A stretch of DNA of 43,659 nucleotides, taken from the NCBI RefSeq assembly GCF_023256325.1, contig NZ_JAGDXI010000023.1, forward strand, positions 1 through 43,659, read 5' to 3'. The notes beneath the pieces were generated by a model. It was not told the DNA's origin. It was given only the letters and a program-made list of their open reading frames with translations, and made no database searches. Shown in pieces: positions 7,067-34,259 of the stretch. The translations under genes and the position numbers were made by a program. The stretch is from Caldisphaera sp. Its GTDB lineage: Archaea; Thermoproteota; Thermoprotei_A; Sulfolobales; Acidilobaceae. Numbering within the stretch: the first letter of the stretch is position 1; every line of letters starts with the position of its first letter.

Positions 7067-7192
7067 GCCTGGCCCGGCCATAGCTGCCGGGCAACACCCG
7101 GACTCGTATCGAACCCGGAAGTTAAGCCGGCCGCGTTGAAGTTGCCAGTGAGTTCCGAAAGGGCTCGCAGGCGCTTCAAGCCGGGGCCAGGC
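7067..7192 (+). rRNA. rrf: 5S ribosomal RNA
   Basis: A GC-rich island of about 126 bases in AT-rich DNA. The 5' end GCCTGGCCC pairs exactly with the 3' end GGGCCAGGC to form helix I. The internal CCGGAAGTTAAGCC is a hallmark of archaeal 5S rRNA loop regions, and GTATCGAACCCGG precedes it. The gene stands alone, away from any 16S or 23S gene, as is usual in Crenarchaeota. A short T-run directly after the gene (GTTTTGCATTT) may act as terminator. Ends are set from helix pairing and may be off by one or two bases. Confidence 0.96.
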
Positions 7193-32500: not shown

Positions 32501-32518
32501 AATTAATAATAATATAAG
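32501..32518 (+). promoter_or_regulatory. TATA-like element upstream of the GC-rich RNA
   Basis: The AT-rich run AATTAATAATAATATAAG is centred about 26-30 bases before the first base of the folded GC-rich segment, so transcription would begin at that structure. Confidence 0.4.
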
Positions 32519-32540: not shown

Positions 32541-32606
32541 AGGGGACCAATTGCCTGCGTGAATTAGCCCCGCGTCACGGGGTCATGTGTGCGCAGGAGG
32601 TCCCCC
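32541..32606 (+). ncRNA. GC-rich structured RNA or mRNA leader before the GPN GTPase gene
   Basis: This 66-base GC-rich island stands out sharply in AT-rich DNA. Three nested stems can be drawn: GGGGACC (32542-32548) with GGTCCCC (32599-32605), CCTGCG (32554-32559) with CGCAGG (32592-32597), and CCCCG (32568-32572) with CGGGG (32578-32582) around a CGTCA loop. Between the last two lies an internal loop of about 8 by 9 bases. The 3' strand includes GGAGGT (32596-32601), a strong ribosome-binding sequence that would be paired. It is either a cis-acting leader controlling the GTPase-proC genes or a separate small RNA. It fits no known RNA class that I can name. Confidence 0.55.
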
Positions 32607-32619
32607 TTTGGGTGAAACA

Positions 32620-33405
32620 ATGTTTATAATATTGTTGGGCACTGCCGGTGCGGGAAAAAGCACGCTAGCAGGGGAGCTAAAATCTACTATGGAAGACACA
32701 GGAGCAAATGTTGCCATAGTAAATTTTGATCCAGCTGCAGAAAAGTTGCCATATGATGCTGATGTAGATGTAAGAGACTACGTAAAAATTGAAGATTTTT
32801 TTGATAAGGGTTTAGGACCTAATGGTTCTCTTATAAGTGCCGTAGATTCTCTAATAAATTATTCCGATAAAATAAGGGAGGAAATAGACAAAATAAATCC
32901 AGATTTTACAATAATAGATACTCCAGGACAATTAGAACTATTTGCGTATAGAATTGGCGGTCCACTAGTTTTAAACTCTATTATTTATAATGAGAAATCA
33001 GTTGTTATTTTTTTAATGGATTCCATATTTTTTGATAACCCAGCTAACATAGTCTCCATATTAACCCTTGCAAGTTCAGTAAATACAAGGTTCAGAAAAC
33101 CTCAGATAAATGTTGTTAGTAAATCAGATCTGCTTGATAAAGAATTAATTGATGAAATAATACCAAGATTACATGAAGATGGTTATTTAGAATCCCTTTT
33201 AAGGGAATCAAAGGATATAGACGGTTATACTTTAGATTTGTCATTAAGTCTAGCAAAAGCTTTGTATGCGTCTGGATATTTCGGGCATATATTACCAATA
33301 TCTATTTTTAATGAACTAAGTTTAAGGCTGCTTTATGGAAAAATTCAAGAAGTGTTAACAGAAAGTGAAGATTATAAAATTTATGATAACGAAAATAATT
33401 TGTGA
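32620..33405 (+). CDS. GPN-loop GTPase
   Basis: A 261-residue P-loop GTPase of the XAB1/GPN family. Walker A is GTAGAGKST at residues 7-15, and the defining Gly-Pro-Asn insert is in DKGLGPNGSL near 61-70. Asp in IDTPGQLELF is G3, and VVSKSDLL near 165-172 is the base-recognition motif. Archaeal GPN proteins form dimers, and the eukaryotic relatives assemble RNA polymerase II. The archaeal role is not settled. ATG at 32620 is chosen because the fold starts at once and GGTGA is four bases upstream. A TTG at 32608 with the GGAGGT site is an in-frame alternative. It overlaps proC by four bases. Confidence 0.93.
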   Translation: MFIILLGTAGAGKSTLAGELKSTMEDTGANVAIVNFDPAAEKLPYDADVDVRDYVKIEDFFDKGLGPNGSLISAVDSLINYSDKIREEIDKINPDFTIIDTPGQLELFAYRIGGPLVLNSIIYNEKSVVIFLMDSIFFDNPANIVSILTLASSVNTRFRKPQINVVSKSDLLDKELIDEIIPRLHEDGYLESLLRESKDIDGYTLDLSLSLAKALYASGYFGHILPISIFNELSLRLLYGKIQEVLTESEDYKIYDNENNL

Positions 33406-34259
33406 AAAATTTAAAAGCTTTGAATTTTAAAAAATTGTGGGAATCAAATTTGGTTGATAGATCACTAGCTATTTTAGGCGCAGGGGTTATAGGGTCATCT
33501 ATTATAAGGTCTTTAATAGGATCCGGAAAGGATTGGAAAATAATAGCAACTGCGAGAAGCGATGAATCATTAAACAAGATTAAAAAAATGGGAATTGATG
33601 CAACAAGAGACAACATATATGCTGTAAAAAACTCTGATGTAATTATTTTAGCTATAAAACCTTCTCAGCTAATAAATTTAGCAGATGAGATTTCCCCATT
33701 TGTAAAGGAGAAGTTAATAATATCAGTTGTTGCCGCAGCTCCAATAAAATGGCTATCTAAAAAGTTGACTGGAGCAAAAATAGTTAGAGCTATGCCTAAC
33801 ATAAATTCTGAGACTTCATCGAGTTTTACGGTATTATCGACAAATTCTAATATAGATGCTGCATCAAAAAAACTAGTAGAAGAAATATTTTCTTCAATAG
33901 GTTATTATGAATGGGTAGACGAAAAATACATGAATGCCTTGACTGCGTTAAGCGGAAGCGCTCCAGCATTTTTGGCAGAGATTATAGATGCATTAGCTTT
34001 AGGAGGTATTGCTTCTGGCCTACCTAGGGATTTGGCTTATAAAGCCGTGTTATATACGATGCAAGGAACAGCAAAAACTTTGCTTGAAAAAGGTTGGTCT
34101 CCACATTATATAAGAGATCTAGTAATAACTCCAGCTGGGACCACAATAAGAGGTATTATGGTATTGCAAGGAAATGGGCTCAAAAGATCAATAATGGAAG
34201 CTGTATTGGAAGCGCAAAAAAAGGCAGATGAAATAGAAAACTACCTATTCAATTCTTAG
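33402..34259 (+). CDS. proC: Pyrroline-5-carboxylate reductase
   Basis: A 285-residue NAD(P)H enzyme making proline from pyrroline-5-carboxylate. The cofactor loop AILGAGVIGSSIIRSL is near residues 23-38. VILAIKPSQL near 84-93, VRAMPNINSET near 127-137 and the C-terminal signature LVITPAGTTIRGIMVL near 246-261 are all ProC features. About 20 residues precede the fold, more than usual, so a later start is possible. The start is GTG overlapping the GTPase stop, implying coupled translation. It ends nine bases before the convergent LutB-like gene. Confidence 0.94.
   Translation: MKNLKALNFKKLWESNLVDRSLAILGAGVIGSSIIRSLIGSGKDWKIIATARSDESLNKIKKMGIDATRDNIYAVKNSDVIILAIKPSQLINLADEISPFVKEKLIISVVAAAPIKWLSKKLTGAKIVRAMPNINSETSSSFTVLSTNSNIDAASKKLVEEIFSSIGYYEWVDEKYMNALTALSGSAPAFLAEIIDALALGGIASGLPRDLAYKAVLYTMQGTAKTLLEKGWSPHYIRDLVITPAGTTIRGIMVLQGNGLKRSIMEAVLEAQKKADEIENYLFNS

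Follow-up and report, generated by a model that had tools for sequence, protein, structure and literature searches.

Helix 69 of 23S rRNA and its pseudouridines are nearly universal and central to the joining of the ribosomal subunits. The RNAs that guide Psi1915 of this helix and have been proposed for Psi1917 as well, namely Pf7/Pab40/Afu4 and the HP2 RNA of Haloferax, are canonical H/ACA hairpins with a lower stem and an ACA, unlike the class A RNA described here. Both Psi1915 and Psi1917 are conserved in the archaea studied, the first being H/ACA-guided in Euryarchaea and the equivalent of the second not being made in vitro by Pab40 or Afu4 (PMC2584109). In Pyrobaculum, sR203-sR210 are atypical H/ACA-like pseudouridine guide sRNAs (Bernick et al. 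2012, discussed in PMC4652768).

The class A element of this study lies at 32541..32606 on the forward strand of the window, by which we mean the whole stretch of 43,659 nucleotides analysed. Like the Pyrobaculum RNAs (PMC4652768), it has one hairpin, whose stem counts about 9-10 layers and leads up to a loop where a K-turn would lie, and single-stranded arms stand in place of a lower stem; the apparent targets are in rRNA, and several paralogues carry an NCA box. Unlike them, class A lacks an ANA/NCA box at about 13-15 bases 3' of the stem (a GCA in family f7 apart), its 3' arm is very long and its 5' arm very short, the loop is non-canonical in families f1, f3 and f6, and conservation extends across another order. 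The uridine that we propose as its target (Psi1917) neighbours, in the same rRNA helix, the one guided by Pf7/Pab40/Afu4 and HP2 (Psi1915), and no Rfam match connects those RNAs to class A. The element also resembles the archaeal L7Ae/K-turn leaders (PMC5539422) in being a hairpin with a G.A-rich asymmetric loop that, in the window, stands just 5' of a start codon; unlike such leaders, class A is not bound to one gene across families, and the loop in the window is GAA/UGU.

A structured RNA conserved across an order of Thermoproteota

The element folds into three nested stems, exactly where the original prediction had placed them. The outer stem, P0, joins GGGGACC (32542..32548) to GGUCCCC (32599..32605), the latter occupying the position held by GGGUCACUCCCGGCC in most relatives. 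Within it the P1 stem joins CCUGCGU (32554..32560) to GCGCAGG (32591..32597), so that the predicted middle stem CCTGCG/CGCAGG (32554-32559/32592-32597) is extended by the wobble U60.G91. Above P1, at a K-turn-like position, the conserved bases GAA (32561..32563) face a conserved UGU (32588..32590) that is UGA or UGG in other families, and the apical P2 stem of CCCCG (32568..32572) and CGGGG (32578..32582) closes a loop (32573..32577) with the family pattern N-G-U-N-N. The minimum free energy of the element is -39 kcal/mol (z -2.8), equalled by 1 of 200 shuffles. Its GC content of 0.65, against 0.31 for the window, ranks second among 66-base windows behind the 5S rRNA (0.68, at 7128), which bears out its description as a GC-rich island. 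A TATA-like box, TAATATAAG (32510..32518), about 26 bases 5' of the base of the RNA, is a candidate promoter, and by eye an AT box stands about 25-30 bases 5' of the RNA in many relatives.

The element matches two covariance models, R1 (E 3e-13), built on 23 sequences, and R2 (E 9e-10), built on 60. A covariance search in relatives, which the original prediction had put forward as a check, gave order-wide matches with heavy compensatory change in the stems. Each of the 25 good genomes of the window's family yielded the RNA with R1; the nearest named relatives there are the Candidatus Hestiella MAGs (Acidilobaceae). R1 also matched across many further families of the order, E reaching down to 1e-12 outside the window's family. 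The RNA is spread over some 30 genera of the order, usually with one strong copy per genome; among 398 genomes of the phylum 81 match R2 at E <= 1, and the strong matches are nearly all inside the order. On the 60 sequences P1 is 97% paired with 6 of its 7 pairs double-changed, the figures for P2 being 99% and 4 of 5, so that both sides have changed in 10 of the 12 pairs. The covariation score of the whole structure is 0.318, against 0.165 +/- 0.009 when shuffled and no more than 0.13 after a shift of one to three columns; the 60-sequence alignment is fitted to the model, which favours this score, and the first MAFFT alignment agrees with it.

Rfam 15 gave no match to the element in the window at the gathering score, nor in 10 loci up to an E of 5, and neither ARAGORN nor Rfam returned a tRNA or tmRNA, which upholds the earlier view that it is not a tRNA; we rejected a tRNA, a tmRNA or a known Rfam RNA on these grounds. 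The reverse strand was likewise rejected as the RNA, since a U.G wobble at the end of P1 in 14 of the 60 sequences favours the forward strand and model matches on the reverse strand are far weaker. The element belongs to a structured RNA family, not matched in Rfam, that is conserved across an order of Thermoproteota. A probable S. acidocaldarius homologue occupies 755452-755525 of G126. The RNA may already figure in the sRNA catalogues of S. acidocaldarius, among the sRNAs of unknown function.

Complementarity of the tail to 23S helix 69

In most genera one or two spacer bases separate the P1 stem of class A from a tail, GGGUCACUCCCGGCC, that is antisense to helix 69 of 23S rRNA and ends beside U1917. 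Helix 69 reads GGCCGGGAGUAACUC-U1917-G1918-ACUC, and the complement covers its 5' strand and loop, at about 1901-1916 in E. coli numbering. In genomes such as G006, G119 and G181 pairs form at 14 of the 15 tail positions, one G.U being counted as a pair and one conserved C.A as the mismatch, with 10 contiguous pairs in addition to a GGGU that pairs with 1913-1916. In f7 and f8 (G389) the rRNA has GGCCGGGGGU and the RNA CACCCCCGG. At the level of sequence the tail co-varies with helix 69: the variable base is concordant in all 27 genomes with an intact tail and both bases readable (21 A:U, 6 G:C) and was so in 0 of 100,000 permutations, a test that ignores kinship, the independent matched switches numbering perhaps only two or three. 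G397 (f2) likewise carries C in its tail; no 23S of its own was found, that of its genus mates being G-type. In the other 16 genomes, all G-type, the segment is lost or shortened; they comprise the window's genus and genomes that we take to be Acidilobus-like and Sulfolobaceae-like, a reservation that covers the Aeropyrum-like label as well. By duplex energy helix 69 was the best site in 2 of the 4 tail-bearing genomes tested and never went beyond shuffled guides. Duplex energy by itself was consequently dropped as a means of choosing the target, being undiscriminating in GC-rich rRNA, and the claim for helix 69 rests on the co-variation.

The 5' segment of the RNA (UGUACCCCGGU in the Aeropyrum-like G006, (U)GAACCCCGGU in G181) is also complementary to ACCGGGGUUCA, a 23S hairpin, perhaps helix 68, that lies some 35 bases farther upstream. 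Its variable base pairs with this hairpin in 15 of 22 genomes (permutation 0.03, kinship ignored), which is suggestive only of a helix-68 pairing. Several of the 23S genes (L222, L223, L224, L225, L230, L231 and L232) are interrupted in or beside helix 69, after A1913 and near 1927, probably by archaeal rRNA introns, and the window's own genome has one such interruption inside the helix-69 loop.

We propose a model in which the RNA consists of a hairpin (P1, the asymmetric G.A-type loop and P2) followed by the 3' tail. Pairing of the tail with helix 69 would bring U1917 alongside P1, and there an H/ACA or H/ACA-like ribonucleoprotein of Cbf5, Nop10, Gar1 and L7Ae would isomerise it to pseudouridine. 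We infer binding in cells, the proteins of the H/ACA ribonucleoprotein as partners and U1917 as the modified base. An H/ACA-like guide for Psi1917 would need, on its 3' side, a tail that ends at C1916 with U1917 left at the stem, as is the case here. On the 5' side only about 3 pairs lie beyond U1917 (GGU with A1919-C1920-U/C1921). The tandem GA/GA of a canonical K-turn is found in f8, in f11, in the Sulfolobaceae-like f4 and in most paralogues; f1, f3 and f6 have no canonical K-turn in this loop, which in f1, the window included, reads GA/UGU. The 5' arm of about 3 pairs, the lack of an ANA box and the limited occurrence of the canonical K-turn hold our confidence that class A works as an H/ACA-like guide, probably for pseudouridine 1917, at a moderate level, and we do not file it as a proven member of that class. 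A co-varying 3' arm is present in most relatives and both arms in the class C paralogues treated below, but not in the window copy, where the only ACA stands 20 bases beyond the stem. We rejected a conventional H/ACA pocket that takes P0 for its lower stem, as being too small (about 4 and 2 bases) and as having no ANA box. The earlier statement that the element is not H/ACA holds for the boxes of the window copy and is misleading for the family, where relatives carry tandem G.A (K-turn-like) loops and rRNA-complementary tails and the paralogues also NCA boxes.

The copy in the window's genus and the paralogues

The window's genus has lost the helix-69 complement or keeps only GGU + CCCCC of it. 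The tail there is AGGUCCCC, AGAUCCCC or AGGCCUCC, the 5' segment changes along with it and the outer stem always closes, P0 occurring in congeners in the compensatory versions GGGAUC/GAUCCC and GGAGGCC/GGCCUCC; in the sister genus, too, the tail has turned into a strand of a closed outer stem. As the tail is now such a strand, the window copy has probably lost its helix-69 guide or employs the hairpin in some other role. The RNA gene in this genus is directly fused to the GPN GTPase gene, ending 14-20 bases 5' of its ATG, and in the window the GPN-GTPase message probably also includes the RNA, as its first 80 bases. For this genus only, it is conceivable, though we lean against it, that a former guide now persists as a hairpin that binds a protein (an L7Ae-like site, for instance) or that stabilises the GPN 5' end, which would be compatible with an H/ACA-like guide elsewhere in the order. 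The loss of the tail and the re-forming of P0 by compensatory changes, with the P1 and P2 stems nearly unchanged, fit such a use, but the core in the genus is still GAA/UGU and not a canonical K-turn.

Several genomes hold weaker second copies (60-sequence model) with the same core, that is a stem, (G/A)A against UGA, and P2, and with other tails. In class B (f1 and f3; L117, L120-L124, L131, L140, L147, L148, L150, L156), which has no Rfam match where checked, the tail end is AGGCUCCACCCCUAGGC and its first 13 bases, AGGCUCCACCCCU, perfectly complement 16S rRNA at AGGGGUGGAGCCU. A consistent 16S pairing of the 5' arm beyond the U was not found in this class, AAGCC occurring in L148 only, and the arm does not fit an H/ACA pocket. 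In class C (L139, L149, L151) the stem is followed by UUCCGUCGGGCG and preceded by CCCU (CCU in L149), so that a right arm CCGUCGGGCG and a left arm CCCU flank the U-G of 16S CGCCCGACGG-U-G-AGGG in the layout of an H/ACA RNA; on this pairing class C is a candidate H/ACA-type guide RNA for 16S. An NCA triplet starts 13 bases after the stem in L134, L139, L149, L153, L155 and L118.

These paralogues bear on the main rival explanation, in which the RNA guides no modification and is an rRNA chaperone or an assembly or hibernation RNA, whose hairpin anchors the antisense tail so that it masks helix 69, and perhaps also the helix-68 hairpin, in free or immature 50S subunits. The helix-69 co-variation is equally expected from such a masking RNA, the 15-base tail is long and covers helix and loop, class A is without an ANA box, and the complementarity of (U)GAACCCCGGU to the upstream ACCGGGGUUCA places the two 23S sites in an order that is not an H/ACA order. 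We nevertheless consider it unlikely, as the helix-68 match is weak and ignores kinship, while the paralogues, with their other rRNA tails, their NCA boxes and, in one case, a two-armed U-G pocket, suggest modification guides.

Gene neighbourhood and significance of the RNA

Downstream of the element lie a GPN-type GTPase gene (32620..33405; PF03029, E 8e-52), neighbour of the RNA in family f1 only, and a pyrroline-5-carboxylate reductase (proC-like) gene (33402..34259; PF14748, E 1.5e-30), both on the forward strand. In f1, the window's family, the RNA stands 5' of the GPN GTPase in most genera, the exceptions being g13, where it is on contigs away from GPN, and one g5 genome with a SerRS-like gene next; anything from about 12 to more than 150 bases lies between RNA and GPN. 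In f2 the RNA is flanked on one side by a PhoU-domain regulator and, usually, on the other by a convergent gene. A ribbon-helix-helix gene (PF07878, below cut-off) precedes the RNA in f4 and f8, or faces it at inverted loci, and a convergent gene lies downstream. In f7 the next gene is usually a convergent SAM hydroxide adenosyltransferase, and in f6 (L066) the RNA sits between CysRS-like and SerRS-like genes, names that come from reading the sequences and not from a search. Constant association with one gene is thus not found, the neighbours differing, and often being convergent, in f2, f3, f4, f6, f7 and f8. In f4, f8 and f9 (L088-L110, L072) the adjoining gene encodes a small ribbon-helix-helix and coiled-coil protein, and this linkage is conserved. 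At many Sulfolobaceae-like loci (L092 after 1521, L095, L158-L163) a few to about 40 bases separate class A from a 3' AUGAUGUAGYAGGGACGUNCUGA, which resembles the 5' half of a C/D-box sRNA.

The differing neighbours, the often convergent gene downstream and the TATA-like box near -26 mark the element as an independent conserved structured RNA gene and not as a leader of the GPN GTPase; of the options in the original prediction it is the independent small RNA that has held, the same RNA standing beside differing or convergent genes across families. The signals on which the other options drew are largely where they had been described, with GGAGGT at 32596-32601, an in-frame TTG at 32608 and the ATG at 32620, and GGTGA, likely the ribosome-binding site of the GPN GTPase (AAGGTGA stands likewise before the ATG in congeners), is present at 32611..32615 and not at 32612-32616. 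The GGAGG read as a hidden ribosome-binding site is part of the conserved 3' strand of P1. An in-frame TAA between the RNA and the GPN ATG in two congeners (G012 and G013) makes a start codon at the RNA impossible there, and the alternative TTG start was rejected on this ground; a switch between TTG and ATG is not supported. A cis-acting leader of the GPN-GTPase/proC message, whether riboswitch, thermometer or start-site switch, is highly improbable: the window's genus has no space for a second promoter between RNA and GPN ATG and the GPN linkage is kept in most of f1, but the RNA adjoins unrelated or convergent genes in other families and lies away from GPN in g13, its distance to GPN varies, and the TAA of the two congeners intervenes, so that a ligand- or temperature-sensing leader of GPN-proC was rejected.

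A regulatory-looking leader can thus be a small-RNA gene that happens to precede a protein gene. For the archaeal equivalent of Psi1917 the surveyed literature establishes no guide, and class A provides a named candidate with a target. It is a doubtful further step to see in class A a kind of rRNA guide or chaperone, box-less and one-armed, that is ancestral to this order of Thermoproteota and docks on helix 69, where it would provide the universal Psi1917 or act as a check on 50S maturation; Caldisphaera-like archaea would then have turned it into a closed hairpin fused to a GTPase gene. The candidate occurs in Aeropyrum and Staphylothermus, and the covariance model finds more such guides.
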